Part shown: one piece after another, positions 50,838-57,894 of the stretch
Layout: each line of letters opens with the position of its first letter
Numbering within the stretch: position 1 is the first letter of the stretch
Assembly: GCF_963678865.1 (NCBI RefSeq)
Contig: NZ_OY787459.1
Location: 1,206,501 to 1,270,500, forward strand
From: Maridesulfovibrio sp.
GTDB taxonomy: Bacteria > Desulfobacterota > Desulfovibrionia > Desulfovibrionales > Desulfovibrionaceae
Direction: 5' to 3'
Length of the DNA stretch: 64,000 bases
The notes under the pieces: generated by a model
Told to the model about the DNA's origin: nothing
Databases searched by the model: none
What the model saw: the letters and a program-made list of their open reading frames with translations, nothing else
Program-made: the position numbers and the translations under genes

Positions 50838-50842
50838 GACTG

Positions 50843-50873
50843 ATCCCGTGGATAATTTTCCACGGGATTTTTT
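50843..50873 (+). terminator. Terminator of pyrH-frr-uppS
   Basis: Arms ATCCCGTGG (50843-50851) and CCACGGGAT (50860-50868), then T5. Confidence 0.9.
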
Positions 50874-51054
50874 TATCCCTCCCGCTTCGATAAAATCATC
50901 CTTTGAAATTTTTTTTTATCGACAAAAATAAGCAAACTGCTTTATTCTATTTACAAAATGTGGGATAAAGCGTGTCTTGAACTGATTTTTATAATATTAC
51001 ACCTATATAAATCATTACAACCGACACTCATACATGAATACAGGGAGGGGTTTC

Positions 51055-52821
51055 ATGTCATCAAGATTGGTTACCGGTTTTCTTTTATGCCTGACAGCCT
51101 GCCTGCTTGTTGCGGCGTGTGTTCCTCAAAAAAACAAACAGCAGAGTAATGCCGTAACAACAACAGTCAGAACTGAAACTGTTGTAATAACTCCTGTCAT
51201 TACCGGTCGGTCTCTACTCAAAAGCAATGTCCGTGAAATTTCGTCTTCAAAGGCGGATATTGTAGATGTTCTGGCCAAGGGAACACAGGTTGAGCTGATC
51301 GGAAAAAAAGGAAACTGGTACGAGGTCAAGCGCATGGACGGAAACGGTAAACCCGGCTTTGTCTACCACAAACTAATCAATCTTGATTTCGGAAACTATC
51401 TTGGAACCCAAGGAAGAAACAATGAAAAAACTGTGGTATACGAAGCTCCGAGCACTAAATCTACCACTGTTACAGTTATTCAGCCACAGACCACTTTCGA
51501 TATTATTGGTATTGAAAATGATTTTTACCATATCAAAGGTGAAAACTTTGAAGGCTATTCCTATGCCAAATATTGTGTAGCCGATCCGCTCACTCCTATA
51601 GCGAAGACTGAAACTCAAACTATTACCGCAAAAAGAGTCCCGAAAGCCTCCGGGTCGACCAACCTTGCTGCAGCACAAGTTAAACCTACAGTTACTGCAA
51701 AACCAGAAAAAGAAAAAATTCAAATCAGAACCAGAAGCAGGACCAAAACCAAAACAACTGTTAAAAAGAACAGTGCTAATCAAGGCATGGGAGCTGCTCT
51801 TTTCGGCGCCTTTGCCCAGGCCCTGCTTACCGGAGGGAACACCGGAGCCACTAATAACAGCGGTATTCCGGTACAATCTTCCAATGATCAGCTCAAGGAA
51901 ATCCTGAAAAGCGTAAGTGCAGGTAAAGAACTGGCTGCCAAAACAGTTGAAATTCGGGAACAGATGCTTCAAGCCCTTAACGAAACAAGGGCACTGCAAT
52001 CTCTGGTGGGGGCAACTGTAGCCGCCATGAACGACAACTACAAAATAGCGGCCGACACTGCCCGTGGAGTCAGCTCCACCGGCATGAAAAAAATATCCAT
52101 CAAAGCTTTCATAAAAGACCTCTCGTACGAACCCACCGACTCAATTGAAGGTGCGGCAGTAAAAATTGCCCAGAACAGCAAAATGCTTCAGGCTCTGGAA
52201 AATAAAATCAAATCCGAGGCTGCGGAATTCTCAAACCTGAACGCCCAGCAGGTTCAGAATCTTGACTCAATTATCAATTCTTTCTCCAACAACCTGCATG
52301 CATCCAACGCGCTTTACGATTTCAGTATCGATAAAGCCAACAACGTCATCCTGCGCATTGACCGGGCCATCAACGCATACGATGAAAAAGCCGGTCCCAT
52401 GGCTGCGGAAGCAACCAAACAGGCCGTGGTTATCGCGCTCGCAACTGCCGAGCTGGTCTCAATCATCAGCAATGCACAGAACGACCCGGTCAGAGCCTTG
52501 ACCGCCCTGCCGAGACTGATCGAAATTCAAGATGAACTGGCTAATCTGACCACCCTCTTCGCCGACTTTCAGGCCGACTACGATTACATTGAAGAAAATT
52601 CGGCTGTCATCACCCGGCAAGGGAAAGACATCAGTAAAATTATTATGACCGCACGCCGGAAAAACACTCAGGTAACCACCATGCTTGAATCATATTACCA
52701 GAATAAACTTGCCCTGAGCAGCAGGCTCAAGAAAAAGATGGCCAGCCAGACTGCGGAAGAATTTAAAGAGGTGGAGAAAAAAGCAGCCTCTGTTGCTTTG
52801 GCTGAAGACATGCTAGACTAA
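51055..52821 (+). CDS. Lipoprotein with two SH3b domains and long helical region
   Basis: About 588 residues. A lipobox LLVAAC (lipid Cys22) follows the signal peptide. Two SH3b-like domains follow (about 45-105: RSLLKSNVREISSSKADIVD, GFVYHKLINLDFG; and 108-175: TVVYEAPSTKSTTVTVIQPQ). A Lys/Thr-rich linker (about 180-240) leads to a hydrophobic stretch (GMGAALFGAFAQALLTGG) and a long alpha-helical, coiled-coil-prone C-terminal region (280-588). SH3b domains often bind peptidoglycan. ATG 51055 is chosen for its AGGGAGGGG; the frame has an earlier ATG at 51034. It is the first gene of a four-gene module between uppS and cdsA. Confidence 0.8.
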   Translation: MSSRLVTGFLLCLTACLLVAACVPQKNKQQSNAVTTTVRTETVVITPVITGRSLLKSNVREISSSKADIVDVLAKGTQVELIGKKGNWYEVKRMDGNGKPGFVYHKLINLDFGNYLGTQGRNNEKTVVYEAPSTKSTTVTVIQPQTTFDIIGIENDFYHIKGENFEGYSYAKYCVADPLTPIAKTETQTITAKRVPKASGSTNLAAAQVKPTVTAKPEKEKIQIRTRSRTKTKTTVKKNSANQGMGAALFGAFAQALLTGGNTGATNNSGIPVQSSNDQLKEILKSVSAGKELAAKTVEIREQMLQALNETRALQSLVGATVAAMNDNYKIAADTARGVSSTGMKKISIKAFIKDLSYEPTDSIEGAAVKIAQNSKMLQALENKIKSEAAEFSNLNAQQVQNLDSIINSFSNNLHASNALYDFSIDKANNVILRIDRAINAYDEKAGPMAAEATKQAVVIALATAELVSIISNAQNDPVRALTALPRLIEIQDELANLTTLFADFQADYDYIEENSAVITRQGKDISKIIMTARRKNTQVTTMLESYYQNKLALSSRLKKKMASQTAEEFKEVEKKAASVALAEDMLD

Positions 52822-52843
52822 AGAGATAAAAGGAGATTAATAA

Positions 52844-53056
52844 ATGAAAAAAATCAAAGTTATTTTAATTTGCGTGATCACTCTGCTGGCCCTGTCCGGT
52901 TGTGGATTCAAACATGCTGATTCAGCCAAACAATCCATGGAAGGTGTCAACCAGTCCGCCGAAGAACTCAAAGAGGAAACCCAAACCTCCAAAGAACGCA
53001 CCGAAGAAATCAAACAGGAAGAGAATCAGGATACAACCGAAGGCTACAAGTGGTAG
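52844..53056 (+). CDS. Small helical lipoprotein (70 aa)
   Basis: The lipobox is LSGC (Cys20). The remaining 50 residues are a single amphipathic helix rich in Glu, Lys and Ser (SAEELKEETQTSKERTEEIK), like a miniature Lpp. AGGAG precedes ATG 52844. It follows the SH3b lipoprotein by 22 bases. It may bridge outer membrane and wall or bind its large neighbour; unknown. Confidence 0.8.
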   Translation: MKKIKVILICVITLLALSGCGFKHADSAKQSMEGVNQSAEELKEETQTSKERTEEIKQEENQDTTEGYKW

Positions 53057-53060
53057 GCAA

Positions 53061-54179
53061 ATGATGGTCCGTAAATTCAGTTTCGTTATCATACTGCTCT
53101 CTACGCTTCTACTCGGCTCATGGGTAGAAGCTGCAGAGCTTTATATTATAGCACCGGCCATAGGCAAGGTGCGGAATAAGGAAAAAGACAGACATAAAGC
53201 GGAACTGGAAATCATACTCAAGGATAAGGAATTCAAAAAAGCCCTGCGTAAAGGAGTAATGGGATTCCTCAAACGTGCTGCAGCCAAAAACAAGGGCGTA
53301 AAAATCAAAAGGGCCGGATTCGGAGATAAATTCGACCCGGAATCTATTTTAGTACCCCTGCTGTTTGTGGATAATGTAATTTCCTTTGTGGATGAATACG
53401 GTTCCGCCGCTCAGAGATTATACAAAGGGCGGGTCTACATCGGGTTGAACTTCCTGCTCTTTCAGGCAAAGTCTGAATCTCTCGTCTATTCTGCTCCCAT
53501 GCTGATATCCGTTCCTTACCTGGATAAAACAAAGAACTTCAGCCTTAATCCCCTGGCCGGACAGATCCGAAGAGCCATTGTGGAATTTTTTACTGACCGC
53601 AAAAGACTCAAGGTTGATGCGCAGGACGAACTGGGGAAATGTCTGGCCAACATGGACTATCTGTTCTCAACTAAAACATGCGCAGTTACCGATATAAATC
53701 TATCCGAGGGAACACTGAAACGCATCCAGAATCCCGGTAAATATAAGTCCTTGGCCCAAATGCTGGCCTCGCAGGCACTTTCCCAAGAAATGATGGTCCT
53801 GCCACCCAAATCAAGGTTCAATGCCATCCGCCGCGGACTGCACGCTTCGGTCTCAATGTTCGGGGTTTCTTTCCAGCAGGGATCAGAAAAATCCGGTTTC
53901 TCGGAAAGGGATAACGTATACCAGACCAGTATGCGCATGCCCAAACCCGAAACAGTGTTCCGCCTGAGCATCAAAACCGGGACCAAAGACAACGACCTCG
54001 GCGCTTTTATAGAGCGCAACTACACCACCGCAGCATACCTGCAGGGCAAAGGAGAGGTTATCAAATGCATAAAGGCCGTAGATGCCACCATTGCCAAGGG
54101 CCATACGTCCGTATCTGATGTAAACTTCTACAACAGCCTGATCAACGCCCTTTCCGATCTCGATTCCTGCAAACGATAA
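53061..54179 (+). CDS. Exported protein of unknown function (372 aa)
   Basis: A signal peptide (MMVRKFSFVIILLSTLLLGS, cut after V-E-A-A) is followed by a mixed domain I do not recognise. Features include a basic region (KALRKGVMGFLKRAAAKNKG), a beta-rich middle (YKGRVYIGLNFLLFQAKSES), and a helical C-terminus ending LSDLDSCKR. The open frame extends back to 52902 over the small lipoprotein, but the signal peptide and spacing (4 bases after the previous stop) fix the start at 53061. It is presumably periplasmic. Confidence 0.75.
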   Translation: MMVRKFSFVIILLSTLLLGSWVEAAELYIIAPAIGKVRNKEKDRHKAELEIILKDKEFKKALRKGVMGFLKRAAAKNKGVKIKRAGFGDKFDPESILVPLLFVDNVISFVDEYGSAAQRLYKGRVYIGLNFLLFQAKSESLVYSAPMLISVPYLDKTKNFSLNPLAGQIRRAIVEFFTDRKRLKVDAQDELGKCLANMDYLFSTKTCAVTDINLSEGTLKRIQNPGKYKSLAQMLASQALSQEMMVLPPKSRFNAIRRGLHASVSMFGVSFQQGSEKSGFSERDNVYQTSMRMPKPETVFRLSIKTGTKDNDLGAFIERNYTTAAYLQGKGEVIKCIKAVDATIAKGHTSVSDVNFYNSLINALSDLDSCKR

Positions 54180-54203
54180 CCGGTACAAAGCCAAGGAGTT
54201 TAC

Positions 54204-54839
54204 ATGAAAAAAACATCACTAATCTCAATTTTTGTTTCAGCTCTGCTGGTACTCTCCTTTGCCACCACAGGATTTTGCGGAAGCAAAGACGGGTACAAGA
54301 TTTATAAAAAAACCGGCAAGCCGACCATTGTCTTTTCTCTGGTTCCGAGAATAAAGGGAGAAAACCTTTCACCACAGGAATGTGAAAACCTGATCCGCAA
54401 CCTGAATAAATCTTTGCAACAGGAATTCAACGAAGCCGGATTCGAAACCCACAGGGACCGGATGATCACCGGTTTTCTGCTCGACTCCTGCAAACGCTCT
54501 TACGCCACATCCCAGCAGACAGTCACTGAAGACGAAATTATATCAATCGCCCGTGATAACTTAATTGATTATGTGGTCATTGGAGCATCTGAAGTGGATA
54601 TTGAATATGATGAAGACTATGAACAATACTCCGCTCTAGTGGATATCAACGGTGATTTTCTAGGAGTAGAATTTGACCCGCCAACTTCTTACGCCCTGAA
54701 CCTGACCGGGGAATACATGCATCCCAAAAAAGATCGGCTGATCAAGCTGGCGGTAATTGATATTGCGCGCAAAATCGCCCGCCTGCGAACCATAGATACA
54801 GTGCTGACCCACTGGCAGGAAAATAATAAAAAGAGATAA
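54204..54839 (+). CDS. Exported protein of unknown function (211 aa)
   Basis: A signal peptide (MKKTSLISIFVSALLVLSFA, cut near F-C-G) and a mature domain of alternating strands and helices: FSLVPRIKGENLSPQECENL, DNLIDYVVIGASEVDIEYDE, then an amphipathic C-terminal helix with LAVIDIARKIARL. It has some resemblance in plan to CsgG/FlgT/LPP20-type outer-membrane assembly proteins (short repeated strand-helix with a VIG turn), but this is only an impression. It ends at a bidirectional terminator. It is the last of the four-gene module. Confidence 0.72.
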   Translation: MKKTSLISIFVSALLVLSFATTGFCGSKDGYKIYKKTGKPTIVFSLVPRIKGENLSPQECENLIRNLNKSLQQEFNEAGFETHRDRMITGFLLDSCKRSYATSQQTVTEDEIISIARDNLIDYVVIGASEVDIEYDEDYEQYSALVDINGDFLGVEFDPPTSYALNLTGEYMHPKKDRLIKLAVIDIARKIARLRTIDTVLTHWQENNKKR

Positions 54840-54882
54840 AAAATCCGGGGGAGCCGCAAAACAACTCCCCCGGATTTTTTTA
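54837..54882. terminator. Bidirectional terminator
   Basis: Arms AAATCCGGGGGAG (54841-54853) and CTCCCCCGGATTT (54865-54877), with A and T runs on both sides. It separates the four-gene module from the convergent HD-GYP gene. Confidence 0.92.
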
Positions 54883-54901: not shown

Positions 54902-56635
54902 CTATTCATCTTCCTCGATCTGTGAAGGATCAAGCTCGGCATTGGCATAATCCATATACAGGCCGGAATCTATAAACAGGTTGCAGACATCCTCATCAAT
55001 ATGCCTGTCCTTGACCATGAAGCCCAAAATTTTGATGGCCTGTGAAAGTTTCATGGGTTTTTTGTATGGTCGATCTTTAGCGGTCAAAGCTTCAAAAATA
55101 TCTGCTACAGCCATGATCCGGGCCTGTAGCGGCAAGTCATCCCCGCCAAGACCGTTGGGGTATCCTGAACCGTCCAATTTTTCATGGTGTCCGGCGGCAT
55201 ATTCAGGAACACGAGAAAGTCTCTTGGGAAATGGCAGGCGTGAAAGCATCTCATGTGTAATAGCCGCATGGCTCTCAATAACGCTGCGTTCCTTATCGGT
55301 AAGTGTCCCTTTGCGGATACAAAGGTTTCTGACTTCATCTTCAGTGAGCCAGTTAAAAGTCTCCCCGTTGCTTTCATAGGTTCGGGAAGCAATCTCCTCA
55401 ACCCGCGCAATACGCTCATCAGACATGAACTCTTTGGGAATATTGCAGGAATTAATATACTGACGATCTTCTTCCACCTGCTCCAGCTCAACTGCGTAAC
55501 GCATTTCAATTTCAACCAGCTTTGATGGGTCGGCACCATTTGAAAGCGCAGCCACGGTTTCTTCAAGTTGCCTATTCTTGATAATTTCAGCAATTAACCT
55601 GAATCGCGCATCGACCATCTCGGCACGGTCAAAAATTGTTTCCAGCTTTGTAGATTTATCCACCACATGTTCGGGAATGGAAATTTTCCCCACATCGTGC
55701 ATCCATGCTGCCAGCTTCAGCTCCTCAAGTTCATCATCGGTAAAGCAAACATCTGCGTATTTACCTTCTTTTAAAGAATTAACCTTATCGGCAATCATCA
55801 TAGTGATGGTTACCACACGCTCAATGTGACCGTTGGTATAAGGAGATTTGGCATCAATGGCTGCGGCAATACTCTGGATGACGGAATATAACAGATCTTT
55901 CAGGCCCTGAATAAGCTGGGCATTGGTCAAGGCTATTGCGGCCTGCGAAGCAAGAGAGCCGACGATGTTCACTATATCCGGTGAAAATTCGATTATTTCA
56001 CCGTCTTCATCAAGAGCATTCAAAAGCTGCAATACACCGATAATATCCTGCTCGTGGTTTTTAAGGGCCAGAACCAGCATGGATTTGGAACGGTATCCGG
56101 TAGCGGCATCGTACTTCCGGGGTCCAGTGAAATCAAAACCTTCGGCTTCGTACACATCGGCAATGTTAATTGTTTCTCCGGTCAGTCCGCAATATGAAGA
56201 GACATTGGATTTATTTGGAGTATTGCCGTTAGCATAAAGCGGAACCGGAGGCAGGGTGATTTCATTACCGCTGGTGCCGCCCATGCGCACCTGCATGGTG
56301 TCATTCTGGAGAATTGAAAATTCAAGTTTGCGCCCTTCAGGATCGACAATATAGAGAGTCCCGGCATCGGCTCTAGTCAAAACCCGGGCTTCATCAACTA
56401 TCATCTCCAGCAATCTCTCAAGCCGTGTTTCACCAGATAAAGCCAACCCGATTTCGGTAAGTCGCTCAATCAACTCATCTTTGGAACCCAGATCGTATTC
56501 AAGCGCATTCTCAACATCACGGCATAAATTTACCACAACATCATGATATTCAGTACCCTGAGAACTTTCAGAAGCTGTTTTAAGCACTTTCGAAAGTTCA
56601 CGTAACTTGAAATCTGTTACACTATTGCTCGACAC
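54902..56635 (-). CDS. GAF-HD-GYP phosphohydrolase
   Basis: About 577 residues, soluble. A GAF domain (about 70-250; RADAGTLYIVDPEGRKLEFS onward) is followed by an HD-GYP domain. HD motif: AAWMHDVGKISIPEHVVDKS (near 310). GYP motif: GHHEKLDGSGYPNGLGGDDL (near 480) with ARIMAVADIFEALTAKDRPY. A large insertion of about 125 residues separates HD from GYP. HD-GYP proteins hydrolyse c-di-GMP; the key residues are present. GTG 56635 is preferred because GGAGGG stands 5 bases upstream; the frame also opens with an ATG at 56668 lacking a site. It is convergent with the envelope module and divergent from cdsA. Confidence 0.88.
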   Translation of the reverse strand: MSSNSVTDFKLRELSKVLKTASESSQGTEYHDVVVNLCRDVENALEYDLGSKDELIERLTEIGLALSGETRLERLLEMIVDEARVLTRADAGTLYIVDPEGRKLEFSILQNDTMQVRMGGTSGNEITLPPVPLYANGNTPNKSNVSSYCGLTGETINIADVYEAEGFDFTGPRKYDAATGYRSKSMLVLALKNHEQDIIGVLQLLNALDEDGEIIEFSPDIVNIVGSLASQAAIALTNAQLIQGLKDLLYSVIQSIAAAIDAKSPYTNGHIERVVTITMMIADKVNSLKEGKYADVCFTDDELEELKLAAWMHDVGKISIPEHVVDKSTKLETIFDRAEMVDARFRLIAEIIKNRQLEETVAALSNGADPSKLVEIEMRYAVELEQVEEDRQYINSCNIPKEFMSDERIARVEEIASRTYESNGETFNWLTEDEVRNLCIRKGTLTDKERSVIESHAAITHEMLSRLPFPKRLSRVPEYAAGHHEKLDGSGYPNGLGGDDLPLQARIMAVADIFEALTAKDRPYKKPMKLSQAIKILGFMVKDRHIDEDVCNLFIDSGLYMDYANAELDPSQIEEDE

Positions 56636-57090
56636 CAGACCCTCCGCACTAAGGATAATTCCCAACATTATTATTTTAAGTAATCGTCTTATTAATACAA
56701 GGGGAAGGCACGCTTGGCAAACTTAATATCAAGGGTTCGTAAAACATGCATGCCCTTCGGGGCGTCTGCATAGTTAATAGAACAGAGAAGATGCGCCTAA
56801 AAGATCTTCAAGGCATCAGTTCAAAAAGGATTGTCATTCCAGTTCTTCACGAACCGACTGTGACAGGATTAATATGGAAAAATAACTGTCAACAGCTTGC
56901 CCACTAACTATTAATGGATTATAAATATGGAGTTTTTTAAAAGATAACGTAAAATCTGCCCAGAAATGATGCTGATTTTTGCTCCTTGCGAGACATGAAA
57001 CTTCCCAATATCTTAGGAAGTACCATCTTTCATAAGTAGTATCTATATATTTTAATTGCATTTTTTGTGGAAATTTCAACCGAGGACTTC
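56636..57090. other. Gene-free divergent interval with hairpins
   Basis: A 455-bp gap between the HD-GYP gene and cdsA. It has a GCCC-TTCG-GGGC tetraloop hairpin (56752-56763) and ACTTCC (57000-57005)/GGAAGT (57016-57021). No coding signal. It should hold both promoters. Confidence 0.45.
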
Positions 57091-57894
57091 ATGCCCGTAA
57101 GCAGCCTTCAAAAAAGAATCATTACCTCACTGCTCCTTGTCGCAGCCTTGACCACAGCCCTGATAATGGGCGGAAACGTATTAACCGGCGGGCTGGCTAT
57201 CTTCTGCACCATCGCCCTTCATGAATTTTACGCCATGTTCTGGCAGGACAGGTCACACCTTGCCTCCAGAATTGTTGGTATGGCTGCCGGCGCAGGAATA
57301 ATAATGACCTCTGCCGCAGTTTCCCCGGTCTGGATGCTGTTGATAATGCTTGGAGCGTTCTGGCTTTTCAACTTACGGTTCCTGTTTTCATTCAGTGCAA
57401 AACCAGATCAGGCGGCCTACCATGACAGCTTGGTCCTCTTTGCCGGACTTGTTTATATTCCTGTTACAATGCAGTTCATGACTTCCATGAACAGCTGGGA
57501 AATACTTTTTGTACTCCTCGCGGCATCTTCCTCGGACACTGCCGCTTTTTATGCCGGAACTTTTTTAGGTAAAAAGAAAATATGGCCCCAGATCAGTCCT
57601 AAAAAATCATGGGCCGGATCAATCGGCGGATTTGCCGGATGCATCCTGTGCTGCACAGTTTATGGATTATTTTTCGGGCATGCCCCGGTCTTATACTGGA
57701 TGCTCCTTGCGGCCATGCTCAACATAGGTTCCCAGATGGGGGATTTTTTCGAGTCTGCCCTCAAGCGCAAGCTCCAGATTAAAGACTCCGGTAAAATACT
57801 GCCCGGACACGGCGGTGTTCTGGACCGTATCGACAGTCTTGTGCTTGCCCTGCCCCTATACGTTCTGGCAAGACAGATTCACGCATTTTTTTAA
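57091..57894 (+). CDS. cdsA: Phosphatidate cytidylyltransferase
   Basis: About 267 residues with six to eight membrane helices. The C-terminal signature is complete: SALKRKLQIKDSGKILPGHG followed by GVLDRIDSL. It makes CDP-diacylglycerol for phospholipid synthesis. ATG 57091 is preferred, with GAGGA upstream; the frame reaches back to a GTG at 57067 without a site. In most genomes it directly follows uppS, which here is 6.2 kb upstream. Confidence 0.93.
   Translation: MPVSSLQKRIITSLLLVAALTTALIMGGNVLTGGLAIFCTIALHEFYAMFWQDRSHLASRIVGMAAGAGIIMTSAAVSPVWMLLIMLGAFWLFNLRFLFSFSAKPDQAAYHDSLVLFAGLVYIPVTMQFMTSMNSWEILFVLLAASSSDTAAFYAGTFLGKKKIWPQISPKKSWAGSIGGFAGCILCCTVYGLFFGHAPVLYWMLLAAMLNIGSQMGDFFESALKRKLQIKDSGKILPGHGGVLDRIDSLVLALPLYVLARQIHAFF

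Follow-up and report, generated by a model that had tools for sequence, protein, structure and literature searches.

The window, a stretch of 64,000 nucleotides from a Maridesulfovibrio genome that consists of a single contig of 4.35 Mb, carries on its plus strand a module of four tightly packed genes (51055-54839), which is the subject of this work. The genes are spaced by 22, 4 and 24 bp and were recovered at the same coordinates that an initial annotation of the sequence had proposed. Gene 1 (51055-52821) encodes a lipoprotein of 588 amino acids with two SH3b domains, gene 2 (52844-53056) a lipoprotein of 70 amino acids with alanine-zipper heptads and a C-terminal tryptophan, gene 3 (53061-54179) an exported protein of 372 amino acids whose signal peptide carries no lipobox, and gene 4 (54204-54839) an exported protein of 211 amino acids, also without a lipobox. 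Export signals were thus recognised on all four proteins, as had been claimed; they were assigned from hydropathy and lipoboxes.

The four genes look like an operon of their own, judged from the signals that surround them. A separate transcription unit is indicated by the upstream gene uppS, which carries its own terminator-like hairpin on the plus strand (50842-50869; 11 pairs, 6 of them GC, followed by a run of T) at the upstream boundary of the module. Between this hairpin and gene 1 lies a conserved promoter-like block on the plus strand (50911-50960), and an alignment of seven genomes shows 33 of its 50 columns to be invariant, compared with 10 of 111 in the remaining spacer, the limits of the block having been set post hoc after the alignment had been viewed. 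The block includes the hexamers TCGACA and TATTCT, 18 nt apart (50919-50948), which match a sigma-70-like consensus in 9 of 12 positions. Since such matches are not enriched in the region relative to shuffled sequence (10 found, 12.4 expected), the case for a promoter rests on the conservation of the block. A Shine-Dalgarno sequence, GGGAGGGG, stands immediately 5' of the start of gene 1. At the other end, the single common terminator that the initial annotation had postulated was found as a strong, symmetric, terminator-like inverted repeat with a run of T (54838-54880), the first bases of which lie within the stop codon of gene 4; it is common to the module and to a convergent HD-GYP gene. 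Between 48000 and 60000, a search of Rfam returned zero RNA families at gathering thresholds.

The gene 1 protein carries the lipobox LVAAC22 and matches the SH3_3 profile (PF08239) with an E value of 3.2e-15 and 56.5 bits, against a cut-off of 27, in two stretches (residues 58-106 and about 128-173, the second taken from the genome search), which bears out the earlier assignment as a lipoprotein with two SH3b domains. Searches of solved structures by sequence returned two SH3b chains at E 8e-5 and some weaker rows. The pair W88-Y89 in the first domain is invariant in all 15 copies, and W88 is a putative ligand-site tryptophan; this conservation concerns the first domain alone. A basic linker (181-240, about +12 in charge) leads into a C-terminal region of about 340 residues of helix, whose hydrophobic periodicity peaks at 3.55 residues among the 12 periods tested. 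The long coiled coil that had been proposed here is therefore clearly helical, while its shape is predicted with low confidence only. The tail contains an invariant MTARRKN motif (531-537) and an invariant P478 at the predicted hairpin turn. A structural model of 343 residues reached a predicted local distance difference test (pLDDT) of 56 and a predicted template modelling score (pTM) of 0.38, and shows two helices of ~110 residues with a turn at 475-477 that adjoins residues 456-474, which are more hydrophobic than any other part of the protein except the signal. The predicted hairpin beside a hydrophobic stretch is suggestive only, and the model is too weak to interpret: Foldseek gave 0 matches at E <= 0.001 and root-mean-square deviations (rmsd) of 15-51 A. 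Chains of the alpha-helical pore-forming toxins MakA, ClyA, AhlC, XaxB and PaxB made up 9 of the 50 rows listed for this weak model, and the others included axoneme proteins, F-BAR proteins, designed bundles and many unrelated long helices.

The gene 2 protein has the lipobox LSGC20 and conserved a/d positions (-46, -43, -39, -36, -32 and -29) in at least 14 of 15 copies. Like Braun's Lpp and OprI, it is a small lipoprotein with alanine-rich heptads at these positions, but its score against the Lpp/OprI model remains at 20.6 bits, with a cut-off of 43. Indeed, no family in Pfam or NCBIfam was matched over its cut-off; 10 Pfam and 33 NCBIfam families were matched below threshold, the best being the SA0632-family lipoproteins (E 3.2e-05, 23.5 bits against 70). 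The residue through which Lpp is linked to peptidoglycan is its terminal lysine. By contrast, the gene 2 protein ends in tryptophan in 15 of 15 copies, preceded by lysine in 11 and by glutamine in 4, and a Braun-type covalent attachment to the wall therefore appears unlikely from its sequence. The comparison with Lpp, which has been described as joined to the wall via its C-terminus (PMC8824477), may thus be kept for the zipper and the lipobox, but the covalent wall bridge that it would imply is unsupported.

Genes 3 and 4 had been presented as two exported proteins of unrecognised kind, and profile searches found no family over its cut-off for either. For the gene 3 protein, the weak matches that did appear belong to unlikely families (such as DUF4209 in 4 of 8 members and PYST-A in 10 of 15), and the only match by sequence among solved structures was the large T antigen at E 0.7. 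Structure prediction gave a different picture, and gene 3 can no longer be counted among the proteins of wholly unrecognised kind. In a model of pLDDT 75 and pTM 0.74, the C-terminal half (about 204-372) is predicted to adopt the fold of the LptE/PelC/PqiC/CsgG group, which the profiles had missed. Its best match is Cj1090c of C. jejuni (7rxu; Z 12.1, rmsd 2.4 A over 113 residues), followed among other entries by LptE (Z 9.2-8.0), PelC (8.8-8.1), DUF330/PqiC (8.7-7.9) and CsgG (8.8-7.2). With the whole model, Foldseek retrieved HpaA, CsgG, LptE, FlgT and DUF330 chains at E 5e-7 to 1e-3; the 50 rows listed were mostly HpaA, CsgG, LptE, DUF330, FlgT and other small envelope lipoproteins, with the LPHT ring also among them. 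Cj1090c has been reported to be LptE (PMC10077673), the structures of PqiC, XCC0632 (DUF330), PelC and LptE have been grouped together, and rings of 8 (PqiC) and 12 (PelC) subunits have been described (PMC10897342). In the model, the order of strands and helices in the N-terminal half of the gene 3 protein resembles that of the C-terminal half, so that the protein may be a tandem of two such domains; a profile-profile comparison of the two halves, made with shallow alignments, gave no signal.

The gene 4 protein keeps its status as an exported protein with no family over cut-off in Pfam or NCBIfam, and a search by sequence among solved structures returned none. Its best matches below threshold were to SurA_N_3 (E down to 0.00029, in 6 of 15 members), Erf4 (0.00076, 14 of 15), FlgT_M (0.006, 7 of 15), DnaD (0.03, 4 of 15) and the CT253 lipoprotein family (0.063, 2 of 15). 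The matches to SurA_N_3, Erf4 and DnaD are possible but were taken as chance, in the case of SurA_N_3 because the match in one member (P0003) starts inside the signal peptide. A common fold for the proteins of genes 3 and 4 is only a guess, prompted by the sequence pattern of gene 4 together with its weak matches to FlgT_M and CT253. Compared profile to profile, gene 4 gave no signal against gene 3, nor against the two proteins of CsgG type and of LpoB in a parallel cluster described below (L045), again with shallow alignments. If gene 4 is of the CsgG fold, it must have diverged far, since another CsgG-type lipoprotein of the genus (L074, 12755-13315) readily matches both the CsgG and the LpoB profiles. 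This lipoprotein is the product of a separate CsgG-family gene, found in the genome of the window at C1:4082866-4083192, with an open frame of 189-217 amino acids; CsgG matches over cut-off occur in 16 of the 17 genomes of the genus.

Genes 1, 3 and 4 are under strong purifying selection. In comparisons with six relatives, the ratio of nonsynonymous to synonymous substitution rates (dN/dS) ranged from 0.055 to 0.117 in gene 1 and from 0.035 to 0.063 in gene 3, and constraint was highest in gene 4, with 0.010-0.039; the ratio was computable in 15 of 18 comparisons, which covered these three genes only, and the values are rough, with synonymous sites near saturation.

The module is confined to the genus in all collections that we searched. 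The 211-amino-acid protein was found in 15 of 348 genomes of the class, all of which belong to this genus, represented by 17 genomes; it occurs in 0 of the 331 others. In a search of 149 genomes of the family, the 372- and 211-amino-acid proteins occurred in 8 genomes each, all within the genus, and the 588-amino-acid protein in 11, three of which (G093, G096 and G014) showed a weak match to its N-terminal part only. Moreover, the profile of the 372-amino-acid protein matched 1 genome in a sample of 395 from the phylum, which was that of the window itself, and 0 of the 394 others; no further module-bearing genome of the genus surfaced in this sample. Each of the 15 genomes that bear the module has all four genes with their order unchanged, so that they are not scattered among relatives, and uppS stands at the locus in every one of them. 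This conserved order and the low dN/dS ratios go beyond what chance would give. Relatives of gene 3 were sought also in viral contigs, where 60 pattern matches led to 0 confirmed cases (phage records were outside the scope), and in plasmids, where none was found. A scan of bacterial genomes with gene 1, which relies on exact short patterns and cannot demonstrate absence, gave 75 pattern matches and two loci, both of Desulfovibrio sp. (L063 and L064), which probably represent nothing beyond two genomes already at hand (G310 and G074).

Downstream of the module, outside the unit, lie a gene for a GAF and HD protein of the HD-GYP type recognised with Pfam (54902-56668, minus strand) and cdsA (57067-57894). 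The description of the module as inserted between uppS and cdsA therefore needs a qualification, as the HD/GAF gene is found there too and five genes separate the two; in the evolutionary sense it holds, since cdsA abuts uppS in other genera, in two of the three genomes checked (L050 and L046). In L049, the last of the three, uppS and dxr stand 932 bp apart, a space that would hold scarcely more than cdsA, although no such gene was called. The HD-GYP-type gene follows the module in 13 of 15 genomes, and 12 of those 13 have a cdsA called farther on, the map of open reading frames of the remaining one (L038) showing none. In two genomes, a gene for an OpuAC-type binding protein stands between gene 4 and the HD-GYP-type gene (G312, L069 11717-12760; G313, L070 7872-8864; tested with Pfam in L069 only). 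In another two (G307 and G308), the module is still behind uppS and is followed by a NicO-like gene (tested with Pfam for G308) and then by TRAP-transporter-like genes, recognised by eye, while the HD-GYP-type gene and cdsA are absent from the fetched stretch. The module thus holds together where these neighbours have moved off.

Two genomes of the genus, G093 and G311, are without the module, the latter according to the class search for the 211-amino-acid protein, and in both the HD-GYP-type gene remains beside cdsA. In G093 only 79 bp separate uppS from the next gene, and the site is empty. The module was probably lost there, because the start of this next gene and its neighbours match those that flank the module in G307 and G308, and the core tree groups G093 with these two genomes (support 96). 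The deep groups of the core and module trees agree. G312 is placed differently, both times with good support: the module tree joins it to G129 and G313 (support 100), the core tree to G310 (88), and an exchange of the module within the genus is for this reason possible.

We propose that the products of the module form a complex specific to this genus and located between outer membrane and cell wall, a wall-anchored outer-membrane platform, to which we assign a probability of roughly 40%. Speaking for it are the fixed order of the four genes and their cohesion in G307 and G308, the empty site in G093, the strong purifying selection, the promoter-like block and terminator of the unit, the SH3_3 domains with the invariant W88-Y89, the predicted fold of gene 3 and the parallel set of L045 described below. 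In such a platform the gene 1 protein would be held in the outer membrane by its lipid and its first SH3b domain would grip the peptidoglycan, and its helical tail would span the periplasm or pack with its partners, among them possibly the zipper of the gene 2 protein, which may lie against the helical part of gene 1. The gene 3 protein would supply one, perhaps two, domains of the LptE/PelC/CsgG type, which in known cases stand at the base of an outer-membrane pore or form a plug or ring at it, and the gene 4 protein would join them as a soluble partner under strong constraint, whose fold may be the same. The whole might position or steady a machine or export site that is encoded elsewhere. 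A role in steadying an envelope machine on the wall has been proposed for TagV of the type VI system of Serratia, which is a lipoprotein with an SH3b domain and a conserved tryptophan within it, like the gene 1 protein (PMC7614798). The latter differs from TagV in having two SH3b domains and the helical tail, and the unit contains no type VI genes.

Such a complex would be a compact and tractable case of an envelope structure that one lineage has built from old parts, namely SH3b domains, an alanine zipper and probably the LptE/CsgG fold, and it sits beside essential genes of lipid synthesis. The predicted fold of gene 3 provides the first testable handle on one of the two proteins that the profile libraries leave without a name. 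If the module should prove to be a device for transport or wall control, it would represent a new composition for the outer-membrane biology of sulfate reducers. The composition as such is not named in profile libraries or in the literature searched, while its parts are of known kinds: the scans of Pfam and NCBIfam recovered no described system, PADLOC matched none of the four proteins and the literature searches yielded no description of the four-gene set, which agrees with the statement of the initial annotation that no such system was recognised.

Several observations weigh against the platform. The set includes neither a partner barrel nor an inner-membrane energiser, and genes 3 and 4 are without a lipobox, unlike LptE, PelC, PqiC and CsgG; for gene 3 this was checked by eye in 15 aligned copies. 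The gene 3 protein resembles this group in its predicted C-terminal fold, in being exported and in its envelope context, but it has an additional N-terminal half and no CsgG, LptE, DUF330 or LpoB profile recognises it (Pfam at E 5 with 8 of 15 members, NCBIfam at E 1 with 15 of 15); the gene 4 members scanned likewise gave no match to CsgG, LptE or LpoB. The structural model of gene 3 is a moderate one, built on 15 related sequences. Ribosome hibernation factors occupy ranks 2-4 of the list for the C-terminal half (Z 9.8-9.5) and so outscore the remaining LptE chains; since they score amid the rest (Z 9.8-6.6), only the match to Cj1090c clearly stands out; values of Z near 8 may reflect a common arrangement only, as the tool itself warns. 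The Foldseek TM score of the whole model, by query, is at most 0.27, which is poor for a global alignment. A shared fold, moreover, does not give a function, and the lineages of G093 and G311 do without the module.

The fold predicted for gene 3 could also be taken to mean that the module is itself an export apparatus of the outer membrane, in which the gene 3 protein, perhaps with that of gene 4, would act as the periplasmic gate through which a polymer or protein is exported, in the way that PelC serves PelB, and gene 1 would fix the site to the wall. Many of the fold neighbours of gene 3 are indeed parts of export or insertion systems (LptE, PelC, CsgG and PqiC). We nevertheless consider this rather unlikely, for genes for a barrel, a polymerase, a substrate or an energiser are all missing from the unit, and neither gene 3 nor gene 4 encodes a lipoprotein.

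LpoB belongs to a fold class related to that of the gene 3 group. This invites the thought that the module controls peptidoglycan synthesis, the set reaching from the outer-membrane side through the wall in the manner of LpoB to switch on a synthase while the SH3b domains read the wall. In favour of this view, a cluster from another genus of the same family (L045 7953-12905, in G096:C16:693001-713000) encodes four exported proteins in a parallel make-up, namely a tandem-CsgG protein, an SH3b lipoprotein, a DUF1425 lipoprotein and LpoB, the LpoB (PF13036) and DUF1425 (PF07233) profiles both being matched over their cut-offs; the CsgG-type lipoprotein of the genus, mentioned above, scores with the LpoB profile as well as with that of CsgG. 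The L045 cluster shows that such parts can occur together, but only its SH3b regions align with the module in the comparisons made with BLAST and hhalign. None of the four proteins of the window matches the LpoB or DUF1425 profiles, and the unit has no synthase gene, so that wall control seems unlikely.

The initial annotation had pictured the set as anchored to peptidoglycan by SH3b and bridging to the outer membrane. As a co-conserved envelope set with a putative SH3b anchor it stands, while a purely passive tether between outer membrane and peptidoglycan, in which the SH3b and Lpp-like proteins hold the membrane and genes 3 and 4 only help, is quite improbable. Two SH3b domains on a lipoprotein and the zipper heptads of gene 2 would suit a tether. 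Against it are the C-terminal tryptophan of gene 2 and the fact that gene 4, which is no anchor, is the most constrained of the three genes measured; moreover, the predicted fold of gene 3 is atypical of tethers and points to a role in outer-membrane assembly, transport or ring formation rather than to a passive link alone.

We attach very little credence to a collar of the flagellar basal body, of the kind of the Vibrio H-ring (FlgO/FlgP/FlgT) but made from other proteins. FlgT and the LPHT ring are found among the Foldseek matches of gene 3, FlgT_M appears below threshold in gene 4, and FliD-like and FliS-like proteins, recognised by eye, lie near cdsA in G093 and G311; this flagellar neighbourhood, however, exists there without the module. 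FlgT_M was over its cut-off in 0 of 120 genomes of the class, with three weak matches elsewhere in the family, and the genome of the window gave no match at E 0.001, a search for which 14 control genomes, also without a match, provide no positive control. The similarities to FlgT thus stay below cut-offs, and the unit lies outside a flagellar operon and contains no recognised FlgO or FlgP partner.

A trans-envelope machine of a kind so far undescribed, in which the gene 1 protein would be fixed to both outer membrane and wall, with the hydrophobic hairpin end near Pro478 dipping into the opposite membrane and gene 3 forming a ring of the LptE/PelC type, is highly doubtful, and would, if true, be a self-contained bridge of new design that moves lipid or polymer, or passes a mechanical signal, across the periplasm.

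Clusters that pair SH3b with DUF1425 proteins were considered as substitutes for the module. G093 spoke for this idea and G311 against it, being without the module and giving no match to the SH3b protein, and it was dropped. In a search with the SH3b protein of G093, the other 15 genomes matched at gene 1 of the type found in the window, mostly in its N-terminal region. The cluster in G093 (L043 6105-12473, in G093:C1:50001-70000) forms one run, which encodes an FtsK/SpoIIIE-type ATPase (E 6.3e-20), two small proteins, an exported protein of 191 amino acids, an SH3b lipoprotein, a DUF1425 lipoprotein and a protein of 175 amino acids that is LpoB-like by eye and has no Pfam match; this run may encode a separate export system.

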